A stretch of DNA of 64,000 nucleotides from assembly GCA_025526915.1 (NCBI GenBank), contig JAHLKH010000066.1, forward strand, positions 1 to 64,000, written 5' to 3'. The notes below the pieces were generated by a model, which did no database searches, was not told the DNA's origin, and saw only the letters and a list, made by a program, of their open reading frames with translations. A program made the translations under genes and the position numbers. This document shows, piece after piece, positions 12,715 through 23,818 of this stretch; position 1 is the first letter of the stretch; each line of letters opens with the position of its first letter. The DNA comes from Entophlyctis helioformis (taxonomy: Eukaryota > Chytridiomycota > Chytridiomycetes > Chytridiales > Chytriomycetaceae).

Positions 12715-13946
12715 ATGGCCCGGTCGCTGCTCTCGCCGCTCTCGCTCTGGCAGACGCTGTGCCTGTGCCTGTCCCTCTGCGTGTCGCTGTGCACGCTGCC
12801 GCCCACGGCCTCGGCCCGCCCCGTCGGCGGTGCGCGCACGCTCGTGCTGCTCGACAACCCGGCCACGGACGAGCTGCGCTACTCGCGCTTCCTGGCCGGT
12901 CTGGCTGGTGCGTGCGTGCGTGGGCTGTCTCGAGTGTCTCGTGCTGTCTGTCTGTCTGTGTGGCTGTCTCACACACTCACTCACTCTGTCTGTCTGCCTG
13001 TCTCACACACACATCCCCTCTGGCACAGACCGCGGCCACTCGCTCACGCTGCACGCCGCTGCCCAGGCCCCGTCCCGCCCGCTCATTGTGTTTGAGGAGC
13101 TGGCCTACGACCACGTCGTGGTGCTGGCGCCCCGCATTCCCTGTGCGTGCAGAGCAGAGTGTCTCTCTCTCTGTCTGGAGTGTCTCACATCTGTCCACAC
13201 ACACACATCTGTCTCACACACACACTGCAGCCTTTGGCGGCGCCCTCAAGATCGCCGGCCTCATCGACTTTGTCAACGCGGGCGGCAATGTGCTCGTGGC
13301 GGCCTCGCCCGAGCTCTCCGAGACGCTGCGCGACTTTGCCTACGAGTTCCTGGTCGACTTTGACGAGCCGCGCACCGCCGTCTTTGACGCCTTCTCCACG
13401 CTCAAGTCCCTCAACGCTTCCACCACCACCAGTGCACCGGCCGTTCTCGCCGGGCCCGGCCGCGAGCACACGTCCCGCCACGTGCTCTCGGACGCCGTGC
13501 GCTCGGGCCCGGCCGTTGTCTTTGCTGGCATCGCCCACAAGGTGTCGCCCAAGAACCCGCTCGCGTTCCCCGTGCTGGCGGCCGCAGACTCGGCGTACGC
13601 GTACGATGTGGCCGACCGCCAGCCGCTCACGGGCGGCCCGCTCGTGGGCTCGGCCATCTCGCTCGCGTCGGCCTTCCAGGCCCGCAACAATGCGCGCGTC
13701 GTCTTTGTCGGCAGCACGGCCCTCTTTTCCGACGAGTGCGTCATTGGAGTAGTGGATGATGCCATTGATGTTGGAGTAGTGGATGTAGATAAGCACTTGG
13801 AGTAGATTAGATGTAGATATGCAGTTGGAGTGGCTGTGCACTCGTAGACTGACTTGTCGACTGACGCATGAACTGATGCATCGCCGCGCGCAGGTTCTTT
13901 GACCTCGACGTTCCCCACAGGGGCAAGACGTGCGTGTTTCTCTCTT

Positions 13947-13999
<53 letters not shown>

Positions 14000-14672
14000 G
14001 TGTCTTTCTCTTTCTCTTCTTCTCTTTCTCTTTCTTGTCGTGCCACAAACTAACATGCTTCCCTCTCTCTCGATCTCTCTCTCCTCTCTCCTCTCCTCTC
14101 TCCGATCTCTCTCGGACAGGGCCAAGGCCGGCAACGAGGCCTTTGCCGCCGACCTGAGCGCCTGGGCCTTCCAGGAGCGGTCCGTGCTCAAGCTGGCCCA
14201 CGTGGCCCACCACCGCGTCGGCGAGTCGCGCCAGCACGGCATCTACCGCATCAAGGACGCCCTGCAGTACTCGGCCCGCATCCTCGAGTGGTCCGGCTCC
14301 GCCTGGGTCCCCTTCGCCGCCCCCGACGTGCAGTTCGAGGCCGCCATGCTCGACCCCTACATCCGCACCACCATGGCCCCGTCGCCAAAGACCGGCCTGT
14401 TCACGACCACCTTTGTGCTGCCCGACCAGTACGGCGTCTTCACCTTCCGCCTCGACTACAAGCGCCACGGCCTGTCCTACCTGCACGCCGCAGAGACCGT
14501 GCAGGTGCGGCCGTACCGCCACGACCAGTACCCGCGCTTCCTCGTCGTCGCGTACCCGTACTACGCCAACATCTTCAGCATGATGGCCGCCTTTTTCGTC
14601 TTTTCCCTGCTGTTCCTGTACAACAAGGACGCGGGCGGCGCAAGCTCAAAGACCAAGATCAAGACGCTCTAG
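12715..14672 (+). CDS. WBP1: Oligosaccharyltransferase 48-kDa subunit (OST48/Wbp1)
   Basis: Five exons: 12715-12907, 13029-13142, 13231-13735, 13894-13929 and 14120-14672; 466 residues, phases all consistent. A signal peptide (about residues 1-40) is followed by the lumenal GIFT-like domain: RTLVLLDNPATDELRYSRFL, FGGALKIAGLIDFVNAGGNVL, and ARVVFVGSTALFSDEFFD split by intron 3. Next comes the conserved second half, with YRIKDALQYSARILEWSG and VFTFRLDYKRHGLSYLHAAE. A single C-terminal TM helix (NIFSMMAAFFVFSLLFLYN) and a short Lys-rich cytosolic tail follow. The protein is a core non-catalytic subunit of the ER oligosaccharyltransferase. Intron 4 holds a long CT tract. The donor for intron 3 is GA|GTGCGT. 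Confidence 0.95.
13950..13996 (+). repeat. (CT)n polypyrimidine tract in OST48 intron 4
   Basis: A near-pure CT run of almost 50 nt, followed by further CT-rich sequence to 14115, fills the 190-nt intron 13930-14119. Confidence 0.9.
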
Positions 14673-14987
14673 TCGTGGCTGTCTATGTCTGTCTGTGTGT
14701 CTACGTGCATCTGCATCTACGTGCACACGCAATGAAGCCGCGCTCTGCTGTGCACGCTTGAACCGGCCCGATATTCATACAATTACCAAGCGTTTTGGAA
14801 TTAAATTCGTCGAAAGAGGCGACGAATGCAAGCCAGCATGTCACACGATGGAAGGTTCGAGTCAGCAACGAGCATGCGACGACAGGGGGATATGCACATC
14901 CACAGCATGAGGGTCTTACCTTCTATTGAAGTGACCCGTTAGGTCGATCGGGAGGTCCCCGATTCAAAGTTGTAGTGGTGGTGCAAG
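14673..14987. other. 315-bp spacer between OST48 and the Fanzor-like gene
   Basis: Lower GC than the flanks. It holds a perfect inverted repeat (14806-14826) and otherwise no supported gene. It is the 3' flank of the Fanzor-like gene, the position where a guide RNA would be expected in TnpB/Fanzor systems. A T-loop-like stretch near 14955-14970 has no pairing partners for a tRNA. Confidence 0.5.
14806..14826. other. Perfect hairpin-forming inverted repeat, TTCGTCG/CGACGAA
   Basis: A seven-base-pair perfect stem (14806-14812 with 14820-14826) and a seven-base loop (AAAGAGG), about 160 bp beyond the stop codon of the Fanzor-like gene. It could be a transcription or processing signal or part of a guide-RNA scaffold. 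Sequence alone does not show which, and a stem this short can arise by chance. Confidence 0.5.
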
Positions 14988-17184
14988 TCAGAGCGCCAAA
15001 GGCTTGTCACGTGGAGTGGCACGTGACTTGCTGGCACGCTGTGACTTGCTGACGCGCTGTGACTGTGTTGGACGCAGCTTGTCGACACGTCTTGCACGAT
15101 CCTGGACGACAGGCCGATCGGGTGGTGTTGGAGGCTGCTGGATGACGGGCGGATCGGGTGGTGCCAGAGGCTGCTGGTCGACAGGCGGAGCACGTATTGC
15201 ACGCAGCTGGATGGAGATATGCATTGCCGCGATGCTGTTGAGGTGCGCTTGCGTGGCTGGATTGCTGTCGGCTTTGGTGTGCGTCAAGTAGAGCGGCCGG
15301 TGTCCAAAGAGCAGATGCCACAGTGCGACCATCCCGATGTTGGTGGCTCCAAGCACGTCTCGGTGGTAGACGGTCGTGCATGCTGTGCACTCGTAGCGTC
15401 GCAGGTTGGTGCGGTTCTTGTCTGGGATCCGCTGCTTGCACTGCGGGCACATCTGGCTGGTCAGGTTCTCGTTGCAGCGGTAGATCTGTGTGTGTGTGTG
15501 TGTGTGTGTGGTCAGTTGGTGCACAGATGGATGGATGGATGGATGGATGGATGGCATATCCAGACGCACATAGGCATATCCAGACGACCGCAGATGCCTG
15601 ATGAGAAACTTCTCAAACACAGCATGCCGACCACCTTGGCCTGTAAAGTCGATGCCAAATGCCCAGACAACGGGAATGTCTTCTCTGTTGGCTTGTCACA
15701 GGCGGCCTTGAGATGCAGCAGATGCGCGCTTTCCAGTGGTCAATCCTGCCAGCTTCATGATGCCCTCAAGAGCGTTTCCGCGATCAGACATGCTGTTGCT
15801 GCACATGGTGAACCGCTTGGCCTTGACCTTCTGTGGAATGCCATGCCATGCCAAGCGGTCCAGTGTGATCAGCAGGCAATCAAGCAGCATGGCGGTCATA
15901 TCAATGGGCATCCAGAAACAGAGAAAGCATACCCGTGCATTCAGGAATGGCGAGCAGTATGCATGGCAGCGCAGATCCCAAAAGGCTCTCTCGCCTGCTT
16001 GGCGTTTGGATCAGCATGCTTTGCTGTCTTGAAGGCAATGGCTCGTGGACGTCGGCTGCCTTGGCATATCGATCAGCAAACCTGGCGCAAGAGGCAGGCA
16101 CTGTGAGTTGATCTGGTCAAGAGTGCGCGTGGCAGAGTCATTGCATGCATACCACCGCTGAAAGTCACGCTCAGCTTGAAACATGCCAGAGGAGAGCACG
16201 TAGTTGGCCTCGAGTTATACGAAAAGTCTCTGAGATCAACCAAGATACTGGACGCGCCAAACAGGTACCGCTGGCCCCAGTCAAAGCTGACAACACGAAC
16301 AGTCTGGTAGCCTTGTTGGTGAACAGCTTGTTGGCGTTGACAATGTTGGGCAGCCACTGGGATGCATTAAAGTTGCGCTGGGCCTGTCGTGCCATGGCAT
16401 GAGTGAGGAATGTGCAACGCATGTGCACTAATGCGCGAGGTTAGCATGCAAGTGGCTTACAGGATTGGGCGCTTTTGGCTTGGTGGCTGATGGGTCGGCA
16501 GGATCGGCGGCTGTGGATGGCATGTCAGTCGGTGTGGACAACAAGTGTGCGTCTGGATTGGCACAGCAACTCACATGTGCCATCCAAGTGATCATGCCCG
16601 TCATTGGCCTCATCATCATGAGCATCACCAGCAAGACTGAGCTGCTGGGCTGGAGAAGCCGCATTGGGATCTGCAGAGCAAGGCAGTGTCAGAACCATGT
16701 GTGCACCATGCATTCAAGCACGCCACATACTGCGAGGCGACTCTGGACGGTCTGTGCGAAGTCCAGAGTCAGCTGAGAGACGCTGTATCCATCGGTCTTG
16801 ATGCTGCCTAGTCTGACAGCCTTGGTTGGTCGCGCTGGGGGCAGGGCTTTGATCGCAGCCTGGATGTAATCCTCGCGCTCCTTGCCATCCAGACTCTGCT
16901 TGTTGGCCTCTTGCGTCGCCTTGGCTGTGGCCGCATTCTTTGCCTTGGCGTTGGCCGCGTCCATATCTGCTTGGGCCTCTGCCGGCGTTTGATACCGTCG
17001 CTTGTCCGAGGTGAGTCCAGGAAGCAGGATGTCCATGACACACAGCTCATGGCTTGAGCTGAACGCGCGCTTGATCTCACTGTTGGATGACTCGAGTGTC
17101 AAGGCCTGTGAGCCAGGCTCTTTGAGAAGAGTGGTTTGTAAGTATCTCATCATGTAAGCATGGCATAAACAAGTGCGACCTACT
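14988..17184 (-). mobile_element. Fanzor/TnpB-like (OMEGA-type) nuclease module
   Basis: Family landmarks appear in order. A TDG-type strand (SIKTDGYSVSQLTLDF, about 16770) comes first. RuvC-I follows with its Asp in VVSFDWGQRYLFGASS (about 16270-16310). Next is LSSGMFQAERDFQRWY (about 16180). The block VVWAFGIDFTGQGGRHAVFE and FLIRHLRSSGYAY (about 15570-15670) leads across intron 15486-15569 to RuvC-II with its Glu in RCNENLTSQMCPQC. A Zn ribbon CPQC...CTAC then precedes RuvC-III with its Asp in HRDVLGATNI. All three acidic residues and four Zn cysteines are present. In characterised Fanzor proteins these drive RNA-guided DNA cleavage, so activity here is inference. A Pro-rich tail of about 70 residues ends at the TGA 14990-14988. 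No terminal inverted repeats or target-site duplication were found, so mobility is unproven. Confidence 0.7.
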
Positions 17185-20100
17185 GCTGATCGCAGCCAAG
17201 AGACGCTTTTGCAAAGCCTGCAATGCCGCGTTGTTCTTGGTTGGCTTGCGATCCTTTGGGTTCCCTATCACCGACCAAAACAGAATGGTCTCGGTGATAT
17301 GACAAACGGGTCCCGATTCGCCGCCTCAGGGCATAACTTGATCACTGTTTCGCCGGCCAGCTTGCGCAGCCGGTAGAACTTGCCTATTTCCGACAGCGAC
17401 TTGTTGAGCAAGATCGCCGCAAGCCTGACCAGCTGTGGGGGATCCCAGAAATGGCTATGCCCTCCGTGTCTGAAGGTGTGCTGGATGCCGCGTCTGTGGT
17501 GGCCTCGTCCCTCTCGCCACATGGCTTCTTGGTCGCGGTGCAATCGGTGGGCGACGAAGAGCTAGACAGGGCCCTCTTGCGACCTGTTGCAGGAGGTGCA
17601 GCATCCAGAGTGGCTTGTGGTGCAGCGTCAAGATCGGCCGGCGATGGGGTATCCTCAGCGACCATTGGCATGGCGTCCTCAGCGACCAGTGGTGTGGCAT
17701 CCTCGGCGGCCAGTGGCGTGGCATCCTCAATGGCTTTGGTCATGGCCGCGACTGATGCCACGACCTCCTCCTTTGATGCGCCGGGCATCAGCTGGTGGGC
17801 AGCAGCAAGCATGAGCATCGACTGGTTAGAGATGACATGCACTGCCAGCATGGTGCAGATATCTCGGGCCAAGTAGCTGTAGATGTCATTGGCGCTTTCC
17901 CACACAGACCAACAGCCAGCTTGCATGGCAGGACTGCCTTGTCCAAATCTGTCTGGATCGCGCTTGTCTGGATCGCGTCCATCTTGTCAGCATCCATCAT
18001 ATCCATGCCCATCATGTCAGCATCAGCCATGTCTGCACGCACCTTGCCTGCATTGGCGTGCACCATGCGCCGCGTCCAGTTACGGTGAACAATCAGTTGC
18101 ATGACGGTGACCAACCATGCGTTGGTGGTGTCCATATATGATCGCGGCTTTGCCATGCGACCATTGCCAACAATCATGACAATGTGGCGTAGGAGACATG
18201 CCACAGACGTCTCGCCGCCGGATCTGCTGCTGGTCAGTGCTGTGAGGAGTTGATTGGCAGTTGGAATGACTGCTGCTGCTTCTGCTTCTGCTTGCTGCTC
18301 GTGCTGCTCATGCTGCTCGTCATCCTCGTAATCCTCATGATCGTCATCGTCCTCGTGGTCATCATGATCATCATCATCCTCGTGGTCGCAATCGTCCTCA
18401 TGGCTGTCAGGACCGTCAGGGTCATTGGGGCCATTGGGCTGCTTGGGCTTCTTGACGCGTCCGAGCAAACAGAGCTCAAGCACTGTGCCCTTTGAGAGGA
18501 TCACAGAATCCCCATAGAAAGGGATTTTGCCCTTGCGACCATGCGGACCAACGCCATACATAAACCGGACCATGGTGTCCTTTTCCAGCACACAGTATCC
18601 TGCCAAGAGCGCAGCCTCTGTCTTGCGGTCAAGTTTCTCGCGATCAAGAAAGCAGTAGTTGGTCTTTCCATCGCGGGTCCACTTGAAAACGCGATAATCG
18701 AGTGGCAGCGGCTCATCTGACTCGAGCTTGAGCAGTACTTCGAGAACAGCGCCGAGCATCACAATCCCGACATGCCGAGCGCCGACAATGAACGTGTAAA
18801 CCTTGGAAATGCAGGCTAGGACGACCATGGCGACAGTTTGCTCTGCTGAAAGTGGTTTGGCTGGAGGGCCCAACAACTTTGCGCTTGCTGGATTGTCTGA
18901 AACCATCTCCTGCACACCTGTCAGCACACACAAAGCCGAGCATGCAGAGCAGCATCGCGATCAACTCCCATACCTTCAGATCCACGATCATATTGGGGCG
19001 ATGTTGCTGGTGTTTGTCTGAGCCTTTGGTGCTTTGGGATGCTGCTGTGCCTCCTGCTCGCGCTCGTCTCCTCCTTCTCCTTGTCTTTCTCCGTGCCCTC
19101 CTCTGTTGGTGCTTTGAAATTGGCGGCTGCAGGAAGAGTCTGGCAGGCCCCTTGTTGGAAGTCGCCCATCCGGACAAGCTCATTGTGCCAGGCGCGTCTT
19201 GCATGAAATGCGTATCTGCCAGCAGAATGCATGTCAGCAAGCACAATCAAGGCATGCAACATGCCATATGCCACTCACGTGCCCGTCTTGTCACCAGTTT
19301 TGTCCTTTCGGGCATCCAGACCTCCCTCCTTCTTGTTCTCCTTGACGATCTCATCTGCCTTGGCCTTCTCTGCACGCTCTGCCCTCTCCTTCTCACGTGC
19401 AGCCAGCATGGCCGGCGTGCAATGGCGTGGCTCCTGCCGCGGTTGGATCCAGTATCAGGTGTCCATTCTGCGTGCACAAGATGCTCACAATCACAAGCCT
19501 GCAGTTCCACTCACAGTTGTCTTTGTGTCATCAAACACACCAAGAGGGAATCTCTTAAGGCATGCTTGGTTGGCGCGATCATTCTCAGATGACCTGGGCA
19601 GCTTTTCTGGCGGTGGAGGAGGGCCAGCCTGTCAAGCAAAAGGATGAGCAATCGTGCCAAATCACTGCGGCACACACAGACAATGGAAGATGAGACGCAC
19701 TGCAGCTTGCTCGATGACTTTCTGCAGCAGAGTAATGGCCTTTAGACGCTGATTGACGAGTGTGATTGAATTGCCCCTGCCCTTGCCCTTGCCCATGCTG
19801 ATGCGCCGATTCTTGAGACCGTTCAGGGCGTCCAGCAGGTCTGTGGCCTCCGCATGGATAACTTCAAACGTGTCTGCCGGTGCCACTCTTGTACTGATCC
19901 GTCTGCGGTGCTTGATCGGCTGTGTGTCTTGCTGCGTTTGTGGATCTGCAATAATGCGTTCCACAATGATGGCATTGTGAGTGGATGATATCAAGTCATC
20001 GCAAAGCAAGCAGCACATACTGGGAGTGGAGACATTGCAGAATGGGGCGCGTTTGGGATGCGTGATCTTGTACAGCCGATCGCGCATTCTTGGAGCAACA

Positions 20101-22127
20101 GTCTGTGCAGGAGCAATGGATCGAGTCAGTCACATTCAAGATCAACAACCACACATGGTGCAAGAGCAACAGCATGCATCCAAGCCATGCAGCAACTTAC
20201 AAAGGCGTGCAAAATGAGCTTATCTTGTTTGCTGAGACCTGCGTACTCATCCGGCTCAATAGATTGCTCCCTGACGGTCTGCAGAAGCTGGGTACTAGCC
20301 GTCCTGCAAATGGCAGAGAGGATATTACGGCGTGTGACGGCATTGTAGTTGTCGGCAAGGAGCTCAACCGCATGCCTGTTGATGGCACCCATCGCCACGC
20401 GGCATCCCTTGACTTCCCTGAATGCAGCGTCCAGCTGCCCACTGATGACAATAGTGATGGCAAGCTGCTCAACAGCACTGCGCGTAAGATGAACAGCTGC
20501 AGGGATAGGCTCGCCATTCTTTGCCTTGGGATGATTCAAGCAGCATCCAGGCGACAAGCACCTGGAGAATGATCAGAGAATGGCATCAACACAGACAGGC
20601 GATGTCAGTTTTTCCAGAAACGCCACAGATGGCATGCATGCATACTTGGTCTCAGCTGAGGCAGCCGTGTCAACATCCATGCTGTTGGCACTGCCTGATT
20701 GATGCTCAGAACTGGCAAGGCATTCAAACGGGTCAATGCCAGTATGTCTGCAACCGCACTTAATCAAGAAGCTTGCCTGGTTGCAATCACGCCAGTTGGT
20801 GCACTGGGTTCAGTCTGGTTGACAAAGATGTCAAACGCATTCTGGAATGAGTGCACAAGGCTCCCATCGCCAATCTCAGCCAACTCCTTGATGTACGCGT
20901 CCTTGACAGCGTGCATGAATATTCTGGCCTCAAATGGAGTTTGAAGGATGGCACAGAGCTCAGATTTCTCGATCCCCAGCTCGACAGCCTTGGCGTTGAA
21001 CTGCGTGTTGGTAAATTCAGCGGCGGCCGCGATTCCTGGCAGGGAATGCAAGCAGAATCGTGCACAAAGACAAAGAATGGTGTGAGTGATGACAGATACA
21101 ACAAAACAGGCGCGGCAACTCACCGTAGCCATGGCGGGCAAAGAAATCTGTATGAGAAAGTGAAGCAATCAGCTTGCACACACCAAAAAATCCACACCCA
21201 AAGGCGGATGCCATGGTGGCAATCCCACCATGGTTGTAGGATCGCATTGGCGCGATCCGCCCATGCTGCATGTGTGTCAAAATGACAGCACAATGCCCAG
21301 CAGCATGGGCAACAAGGTCGGAGTCATTTCCAATGATGAGCATTGGCTTTGGACTGCCACTCAGTGCATATTGTGAGCCATCAACTAGAACAGAAGAACG
21401 CCACAATGATCTCTTACCTTGACTTGCAAACATGGCGGGCGATGCAACAGTCTGCCTCGTAGTTGCAATGGCAGACTGTGAATCCATCCATCGATCGAGC
21501 CAGCTCCTTGAGCGCCTCAAAGATATGCTTCTTGTCAATGTTGGTCAGGCAGAAGAACCTCTTGAGGGCGTGTTTCTCTTCCCTGATCGCCAGAAGCAGA
21601 AGGTGGTTAGTATGGCAGCCACACAATTCAGAGCAGCGACCTTACTTGGTCATTGACCCCGCCTGCTTGTATTCTTGACGCTGGTAGATGTGCTGCTGGA
21701 CTGTGGCGGCTGCTTCGAGCATCTTGAGTGTGCGGCTGTGGTGGACCAGCTTGACCTCCGAGTCACCGAGACGCCCGTCAACATGGAACCAGACGTCGTG
21801 GCCGTTGCCAAGCGACGCCATAAAGACTTCCAAGGCCGGCTGGATAATGGCCTTCCAGCCGGCCTTGGAGTCTGGCTGGCTGATGGCTGCTGTTGCAACC
21901 AAGGCTGAAAAGAATACGCTGAGAAAGTCGACATGTATAGTGCTGCTGATGAAGCTGCTGGCGGCTGTTGCTGTTGCTGTTGTTGCTGGTCGCTGTTGCT
22001 GCAGCGGCTGTTGCGGCAGTGTGCTATGGAGCACAACCTGCACGACCTGGCCCAGGGCCCAGGCAGCGGTGTGGACAAGGACGGCGCCGTGCGTCTCGGC
22101 CACTTTCAGCAGGCCTACGAAAGTCAT
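14988..22127 (-). CDS. XPG/FEN-type nuclease exons joined to a Fanzor/TnpB-like RuvC nuclease; multi-exon, frame-broken in the 3' half
   Basis: Exons, leftward: 22127-21646, 21582-21418, 21353-21124, 21035-20777, 20711-20646, 20561-20201, 20102-20021, 19945-19701, 19628-19515, 19433-19279, 19215-18974, 18917-18043, 17962-17184, 17119-16731, 16670-16575, 16510-16461, 16383-15933, 15830-15570 and 15485-14988; about 1,900 codons. The first twelve exons keep phase perfectly. The N-terminus resembles XPG/FEN1: MTFVGLLKVAETHG, HVDFLSVFF, FHVDGRLGDSEVKLVHHSR, then NYEADCCIA, IIGNDSDLVAHAAG and a turn ending in GYG. Middle exons (18043-18917 and others) are unrecognised, with an Asp/His-rich stretch. 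The C-terminal part is Fanzor-like (see separate entry). From exon 13 on, frame changes without introns occur near 17440, 17310, 16730, 16320 and 16215, plus several between 15.6 and 16.1 kb, nearly all fitting one lost base. Intron 4 appears to be GC-AG. Two adjacent genes rather than one fusion cannot be excluded. Confidence 0.62.
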
Positions 22128-23580
22128 GTTGGTGCTGCTGCTGCTGTGTGGTGTGTGGTGCTGCGTACTGGTGCGTGCTGCTGCTGCGTCTGTATCTGTG
22201 TTTACGAGAAAAGAATCGGAGCGTCTGGCGGAGTTTCAGTGTTTATTGCATGAAAACAGAGAGCGAGTGGATAGAGAGCGAGCAGTCTGGCACTCGCCGC
22301 CCACTGCCCGACAACCATCAAGGGAGCAGCGAGCAGCGAGCACAGCCAACAGCCAGGCGTTCAAGATGCGGTCATGCGTTGCTGGCACAGTCATTGATGA
22401 GATGCCACTCAGTGCGCAGCTTGACATGCACCGTGCAGCATCACTTTGCATGTCATGAGCTGCATTGCAGCGAGCCTCTCTCCAAGTGTCGTCTTCTCAG
22501 TCAATGTCCCCACTGCATCCAACAATCATCCTGATATGCATCTGCATTGTGACCCAGTGCGATGCAGTTGGTGTTGCCTGACTGGCCAGCTGGTCCATGG
22601 ACAGGTTGGTCGTTGGCGCACTGCCTGCATCGCCCCTCTGCTCTGGATCGTCCTTGTCAACACGCACAGTGCATGCAAGACTGCGGTCGTCAGGACCGTC
22701 GCCATCATCATCATTGTTGTGGTTGTTGAATGAATGGAGGATGCATGGTCTGTCTGTTTGGCCACTCCAGTTGCTGCTCAGTGGATCGCATCCAAGATGC
22801 CATCGCACCAAGTGCAATGTGGCCAGACACGCCTGCCAGCACTCGCGTCCTCCTCACCAATCTCGTCTGGATCAGTGTAGTCGAGTGTGACGCTCATCGA
22901 GTGTGCTGCCACTGCCGAGTTTGGCATCCAAGTCGGCATGCCAATCCAGCTGTCCAGCAAGCAGTTCCTGCAGCCAACTCCAAGGATTGGCCCTTCGAGC
23001 ACGTCTCAGTGGCTGCTCATCGTTGCTGCTGCATCCCATGTCGCAGTCGGAAAGCACCAGGCAGCTCGGTCCTGCGATGCCAATGCTCTCGCTGTCCTCT
23101 TGAACAACAACCAGCTCGCCCTGCTCACAGCCGTCTTGCTGACGTCCCTTGCTGTTTGGACCCATCAGACATGCACACAGTCAGTGCCAAGACAACACAG
23201 ACACAGCCGTCAGACTGCTGTGCCGTCGTCGTTGATGGGCAATGGAGCATGCCTGGACAGACAGCGAGTCAACGCACCCGCTTGCCTGTCTGCAGCCTGC
23301 CTTCTGTCCGCCCGCCTTGTTGGGCACGCCTCTCAGACGGCCACGACCACGCTGCTCTGCTGGACTGCCTGTTGTATGGCCTGCAGCATGCCACCTTGAG
23401 CAGTGAGCCTCGCCGTGCCCCCTGAAGGACTCGTCCAGCAAGCGAGTGTTGTCCCATATCCGTGCTGTCGCCTGCGTTGCCGTCGTCGTCGTTTGGCTCG
23501 TTGTTGTTTGTGTGCAGTTGGGCGGCAAGTGCAGCAGCGTCTGGATCTGGCATGGCGCGTTGCTGCTGTGCTCGCATCGC
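22128..23580. other. Accessory spacer upstream of the XPG-Fanzor gene; weak minus-strand coding signals only
   Basis: About 1.45 kb. Minus-strand stretches with protein-like, acidic composition occur at 23577-23270, 23140-22870 and 22770-22520 (for example SSNDEQPLRRARRANPWSWL and RVDKDDPEQRGDAG). They do not join into one frame and match no family I recognise. They could be a degraded gene, or 5' exons of the gene at 22127. No gene is called here. Confidence 0.4.
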
Positions 23581-23618
23581 GCAGTGTCAGCACCGTGCAA
23601 GGGCTCTCTAGATTCGGA

Positions 23619-23705
23619 CCAATCACAGCGATTCCACCAGGATCGACCAATCACAGCGATTCCACCAGGATCGACCAATCACGGATTCCACCAGGATCGA
23701 CCAAT
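23619..23705 (+). promoter_or_regulatory. Array of four CCAAT boxes in 28/28/26-bp direct repeats
   Basis: CCAAT occurs at 23619, 23647, 23675 and 23701, mostly as GACCAATCA, separated by the repeated spacer GATTCCACCAGGATCGA. The array ends about 115 bp before the NBAS start codon. CCAAT is the recognition core of the NF-Y/HAP complex. Its regular spacing and promoter position suggest an upstream activating element for the plus-strand NBAS gene. Confidence 0.6.
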
Positions 23706-23818
23706 CAGGAATAGTCCACCAGGGGTAATGGTATGAGAACCGGGCACTTGAACCGCCTGCTGTTCCACGTTGGCACTTTGCGTTGATCTTGCGCGCGTGT
23801 GCCCAACCAAGCCAAGCC

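Follow-up and report, generated by a model that had tools for sequence, protein, structure and literature searches.

A decayed terminal-inverted-repeat DNA transposon of Entophlyctis helioformis with relatives predicted to encode a FEN/XPG-like and TnpB/Fanzor-like fusion protein

Partner transposases accompany some TnpB and Fanzor enzymes but not others, and Academ transposons combine an XPG-type nuclease with a DDE transposase and make target-site duplications (TSDs) of 3–4 bp. The present work concerns a 64,000-nucleotide stretch of E. helioformis DNA, hereafter the window (contig C66, 1–64000, of the 29.57-Mb assembly in which the genome searches were made), and a minus-strand locus in it which an earlier note had read as a fusion of an XPG/FEN-type nuclease with a Fanzor nuclease. 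The locus is one copy of a high-copy terminal-inverted-repeat (TIR) DNA transposon of about 8.98 kb, a nature which the earlier note had not seen and in which it is corrected here. According to the available text of PMC3627910 and PMC10711439, Fanzor1-carrying eukaryotic DNA transposons likewise pair a TnpB-family RuvC nuclease and C4 ribbon with TIRs and TSDs, share an alternative position of the RuvC glutamate and in some cases also encode no transposase; the present element differs by a fused FEN/XPG-like domain, an extended middle region, a predicted length of about 1,800 aa in 18–19 exons, and DWG instead of DPG at RuvC-I. The available text of PMC3627910 makes no mention of XPG. TnpB of IS200/IS605 and IS607 is alike in RuvC triad, zinc ribbon and the D-hydrophobic-G motif at RuvC-I, whereas here the gene is eukaryotic and spliced, lies in a TIR/TSD element, and has an N-terminal FEN-like domain and the alternative glutamate. 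With FEN1, XPG and Asteroid-type nucleases (XPG_I_2, PF12813) the order and spacing of seven acids are shared, but the overall sequence is too divergent for the Pfam cut-off and forms part of a transposon protein. In the open-access library searched, no paper was found that links Fanzor or DNA transposons to XPG or a flap endonuclease, nor, judged by title or abstract, one on an Academ element with XPG and transposase.

The transposon copy and its ends were delimited as follows.

14765..23746, minus strand: whole transposon copy; alignments among copies break off at 14765 and about 23745, with TIRs and a flanking duplication
23747..23754, minus strand: left TSD, GGTTCAAG, from flank comparison
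14757..14764, minus strand: right TSD, GGTTCAAG, from flank comparison
23724..23746, minus strand: left TIR, with T as first base in the window copy and G in most copies
14765..14787, minus strand: right TIR, from end comparison

The 23-bp TIRs (GGCCCGGTTCTCATACCATTACC and GGCCCGATATTCATACAATTACC) match each other imperfectly. Allowing up to three mismatches, 96 left and 170 right ends were matched genome-wide, and none with a reversed-pattern control; exon searches gave at least 167 matches for the N-terminal half (N-half) and 152 for the C-terminal end (C-end). An 8-bp TSD with at most one mismatch was present in 12 of the 19 left–right pairs checked. The remaining seven comprised a perfect 11-bp repeat (C219), an 11-bp repeat with two mismatches (C193), an 8-bp repeat with two mismatches (C22) and four pairs in which a TSD was not found (C141, C10, C342 and C60). 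TIRs together with a TSD of fixed length across many copies, the signature of a cut-and-paste TIR element, were thus observed. A listed right end lay within 25 kb of 40 of the 75 left ends typed, the spans being 7.2–9.8 kb in 27 cases, short in three and longer in ten. The three short TIR-bounded derivatives are located at C35:164492–165479 (988 bp), C436:7861–8911 (1,051 bp) and C199:20581–22748 (2,168 bp). The same right flank is common to L071, L080 and L081 (contigs C60, C122 and C36) and resembles a segmental duplication or nested insertion.

In relatives of the window copy the two halves are predicted to form a single polypeptide of some 1,800 aa, as read from spliced alignments made with an aligner written for the purpose. 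The divergent relative L090 has an uninterrupted spliced frame of 18 exons and 1,844 aa, from an MGITGFGQ start to a stop past the zinc ribbon, which includes about 24 residues that are intron in other copies; its N-half (12 exons, zero frameshifts or stops) is identical to the window copy at 372 of 1,006 residues. In L047, from another subfamily, 19 exons give a stop-free frame of at least 1,818 aa, up to the last aligned residue. The exon bridging the halves is open over 674 codons in L096, 616–617 in L090 and L091, 732 in L098 and 599 in L047, and relatives do not splice at 18043, where the earlier note had ended an exon: in L096, which shares 90% identity with the window in this part, the frame continues through that position. 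Since the supposed junction is internal to one long open exon in five copies, two tandem genes in one element, XPG-like and TnpB-like with separate transcripts, are very unlikely, for all that the window copy loses its frame past 18043. The single polypeptide that had been proposed is thus borne out by the relatives, and the halves are not always separate genes, both being in one gene model at each of the 13 loci with end-to-end alignments.

Among the matches listed, the N-half was found within 20 kb upstream and on the same strand for 65 of 150 listed C-end loci, as compared with two for the downstream and three for the other-strand control; this co-occurrence in order and orientation exceeds chance, and 59 of the 65 matches sit 3.5–9.5 kb upstream of the C-end. 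The other 85 loci comprised 22 with less than 8 kb of upstream contig (plus-strand rows only) and 63 without an N-half among the matches listed. A standalone TnpB family lacking the N-half was considered; four (L096, L098, L120 and L121) of seven such loci inspected turned out to have one. The other three are a C-terminal fragment (L122) and two loci, L097 and L099, that have the middle and C-terminal half (C-half) with unrelated retrotransposon-like open reading frames (ORFs) upstream, an N-half match lying further out on the contig of L097 (C69). The long upstream ORFs span oriented positions 2–2650 in L097 and 3106–4284 in L099, their retrotransposon-like label being given by eye. L123, taken for its 5′ end, also has an N-half.

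The window locus itself is a decaying transposon copy, in which the gene is distributed as follows.

18043..22127, minus strand: exons 1–12, in-phase join, 1,092 aa
17184..18917, minus strand: bridging exon as read in relatives, between the middle region and the TnpB-like half; interrupted by frameshifts in the window copy
14988..17183, minus strand: remaining TnpB/Fanzor-like half, several exons, frameshifted in the window copy
15696..15698, minus strand: in-frame stop in the degenerate C-half, from spliced alignment

As had been claimed, exons 1–12 (22127 to 18043) join in phase over 11 introns of 56–98 bp, one of them GC-AG, with no stop, and the XPG/FEN and TnpB/Fanzor motifs quoted in support are present on the minus strand. 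The later exons, which had been joined on, are out of frame in this copy, with seven frameshifts and one stop in the C-half when aligned with one query and nine and one stop with another; the N-half showed zero frameshifts with a same-copy query and a single one, the tenth, only with a distant query. In alignments with the same-copy N-half query and with the C-half query, every lesion of the window copy falls within 15696–17909, as against a clean 18043–22127, a contrast that may reflect halves of different age brought together by recombination. Over the 13 loci aligned to one query the lesions ranged from 0 (L090, L047) to 11 (window), one of the 11 probably arising from the distant query. 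A frameshift at query position 386 (hybrid query) and those at 1731–1751, where an intron is read through by L090, were excluded from the counts, the 13-locus count being repeated without the 1731–1751 artefact.

The C-half contains the RuvC D, E, D triad, located by motif, and a C4 ribbon.

16280..16282, minus strand: RuvC-I Asp codon (SFDWG)
15468..15470, minus strand: RuvC-II Glu codon at the alternative position (NENLTSQMC)
15357..15359, minus strand: RuvC-III Asp codon (HRDVLGATNI)

The ORF 14988–15695 matched Pfam Cas12f1-like_TNB (E 5.2e-10, 39.8 bits, cut-off 26.3), and guided_TnpB was matched at E 4e-7 over the last 46 matched residues, under that model's cut-off. The L090 protein contains the Bao–Jurka Fanzor pattern D-X(125,275)-[TS]-[TS]-X-X-C4 finger-X(5,50)-RD, with a gap of 215 residues from D to TS in a frame that includes the residues intronic in other copies. 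Both DPG at RuvC-I and the alternative glutamate are given as Fanzor fingerprints in the available text of PMC10711439. The latter is present in the window and its relatives as E-x6-CxxC (E-NLTSQM-CPQC), but RuvC-I reads DWG in the window, L090, L045, L047, L046, L048, L089 and L091, and the C-half is therefore not a canonical Fanzor. The proposed Fanzor C-terminus accordingly holds for the TNB domain, triad, ribbon and glutamate and fails at DPG; as judged from these motifs, the C-half has a TnpB/Fanzor layout and fits only partly, one defining fingerprint being absent. The nearest solved chains to the single L090 sequence were TnpB-like L79 (E 0.023) and TnpB (E 0.09), and a C-half profile found TnpB-type chains in the PDB only at E 0.26 or worse, among unrelated ones. 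Nine C-half relatives were found in the protein database, 9/9 from E. helioformis, of 168–332 aa and without a Pfam domain. Neither half gave a match in viral contigs.

20777..22127, minus strand: FEN/XPG-like domain, exons 1–4, about aa 1–375, with seven invariant acids and a sub-threshold XPG_I_2 match

The seven acids D67, D117, E203, D205, D226, D228 and D285 (window numbering) were invariant in six and then in nine sequences. They correspond, in identical order, to D34, D87, E159, E161, D180, D182 and D234 of the host FEN1, which we take to be its catalytic residues, and are spaced by 50, 86, 2, 21, 2 and 57 residues vs. 53, 72, 2, 19, 2 and 52, so that the seven acids characteristic of FEN/XPG enzymes are found in their conserved order and spacing. 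The last Asp precedes a GIG-like turn, a feature shared with FEN1. XPG_I_2 was the top Pfam match of L098 (E 3e-4), L123 (5.6e-4), L120 (2.2e-3), L047 (4e-3), L048 (0.017) and L090 (0.37). The window copy had 5_3_exonuc_N first (E 0.027) and XPG_I_2 second (0.12), and the Pfam scan of L045 gave no XPG_I_2 match. These motifs and sub-threshold matches point to a remote XPG/FEN relation of the domain.

Between close copies dN/dS was 0.12–0.67 in the regions tested, which indicates that the protein has evolved under purifying selection. Between subfamilies (A–G, our own grouping by identity) the N-terminal part is near synonymous saturation and the RuvC/Zn part has a dS of about 0.22–0.25. L096 (C22:158600–166500) is chimeric, its N-half being like L098 (95% DNA identity) and the rest like the window (90% over 4,454 bp), and this subfamily mosaicism probably stems from copies recombining with one another.

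The 3′ end of the element is conserved and contains the following features.

14765..14968, minus strand: conserved 3′ stretch with hairpins, a candidate scaffold for a guide RNA, from copy alignment and folding
14918..14919, minus strand: splice donor GT (AAG/GTAAG), with no acceptor inside the element, from aligned right ends
14861..14868, minus strand: branch-site-like TTGCTGAC, from aligned right ends

All 25 right ends aligned, which belong to related copies and hence are not independent trials, have AAG/GTRAG, TTGCTGAC 50–56 nt further on, and then 94–97 nt without YAG to the element end, a single AG occurring in that stretch in one copy. For comparison, 70 of 105 introns of the gene family have CTRAY in their last 60 nt, vs. 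14% of exon 60-mers, at a median of 23 nt and a maximum of 57 nt from the acceptor, and AG-free 96-mers start at 0.4% of exon positions and 2.1% of window-element positions. Upstream of the donor, one hairpin is invariant in the 25 copies, a second is intact except for one outer pair missing in a single copy, and a third, directly before the donor, varies in length and sequence and folds alone in 23 of 25, weakly in several, with no fold in L027 and L046. The only Rfam match (E 0.38) was far under the gathering score. We propose that this region may be a guide-RNA scaffold whose end is the splice donor.

On balance it is probable that the locus is a decayed TIR-transposon copy with a single detected gene, coding for a protein of about 1,800 aa with a FEN/XPG-type part, an unassigned middle and a TnpB/Fanzor-type part, which would help the element to spread or maintain itself. 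The RuvC half, carrying RNA from the conserved 3′ end, would cut a matching site, for instance the emptied donor site or an empty allele; the FEN half would trim flaps or branched intermediates at that break; and repair would then restore or add a copy of the element. Joining of the TIR ends with an 8-bp stagger might be provided by the unassigned part of the protein or by a DDE transposase in trans. RNA guidance, both nuclease activities and the role in retention or spread are thus inferred from sequence features. If the architecture works as read, one protein would make a programmed break and process its ends, and such a dual enzyme bears on what Fanzors do for their transposons. The copy number is high, with several subfamilies and copies with unbroken frames, and the fusion question is therefore testable.

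Several observations weigh against this reading. The window copy is degenerate; dN/dS is higher in the RuvC/Zn region (0.46–0.68), whose constraint may therefore be weaker; and no compensatory change was found at any pair of the 3′ hairpins in the 25 copies. For the N-terminal domain no sequence exceeded the Pfam cut-off, the best XPG_I_2 score being 20.8 bits vs. 24.2, so that of the two halves searched with HMMs the C-end passed a cut-off (that of Cas12f1-like_TNB) and the N-half did not; the XPG/FEN-like N-terminus of the earlier note is upheld by the seven acids but not by profile scores. A profile of the domain matched a single, unrelated PDB chain (E 0.64), and hhalign to 60 FEN1 sequences gave a probability of about 0.2%. 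AlphaFold2 models of the FEN-like region (six near-identical subfamily-D rows, mean pLDDT 40) and of the bridging exon (seven rows, mean pLDDT 39) were unusable. In the protein database no N-half relative was found at E 1e-3 (query residues 1–560, among candidates limited to 7,995). The sub-threshold Pfam scores, the profile searches and the unusable fold would also suit a domain of another fold with its acids in FEN order by chance, or a PIN-like domain without activity; against an invariant set of seven acids with near-FEN spacing in nine sequences, the top rank of XPG_I_2 in six copies and the GIG-like turn, we regard this explanation as quite improbable.

The Pfam scan of the L090 protein revealed no transposase domain, so that no recognisable transposase was found in the element. 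This observation also suits a model in which a DDE transposase from another locus, such as one of the KDZ/Zisupton type, moves the element through its TIRs, and the fused protein has no part in movement and only biases copy retention or defends. The short deletion derivatives make movement in trans likely, and KDZ matches over the cut-off were obtained at three loci of the E. helioformis genome. Zisupton likewise makes 8-bp TSDs, according to the available text of PMC12730594, and that of PMC3627910 describes published Fanzor elements that have known TIRs and encode no transposase. However, no KDZ domain was detected in the element or its protein, the KDZ copies look fragmentary, no TIR of the present family occurs within 1.6–2.0 kb around the three KDZ loci (too short a span to exclude one), a MULE search was without match, and the purifying selection across deep subfamilies exceeds what a pure passenger would need. 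Taken together, the passenger model is possible but somewhat unlikely. A hAT search gave no match, but neither did its control. The three KDZ loci, L124, L125 and L126 (contigs C334, C271 and C396), are fragments of KDZ-type transposases, L124 and L126 being about 98% identical.

The preferred reading, a fused protein serving the element, leaves the ends to the unassigned part of that protein or a transposase in trans. A bolder proposal, to which we give little credence, is that the FEN–TnpB fusion acts as the transposase, so defining a new TIR superfamily, and that the spliceosome completes its guide RNA. At the 3′ end, the donor and branch-like site would then strip the TIR and TSD from the transcript, and the hairpin scaffold would either be joined to flanking host sequence as guide or be ended by the first splicing step alone. 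The orphan conserved splice donor offers another lead, to the way in which a guide RNA could shed the transposon ends.

22128..23723, minus strand: 5′ region of the element, 90–94% identical among copies, apparently non-coding

A second coding gene in this region was rejected on the indel pattern and poor ORF retention: among 16 loci (including the window copy, L005) 110 of 128 indels were not multiples of three, and each of the eight longest ORFs was kept in at most eight loci. Beyond the other end of the element a plus-strand open frame at 13872–14672, possibly the end of a host oligosaccharyltransferase subunit, which it resembles, stops 93 bp short of it.

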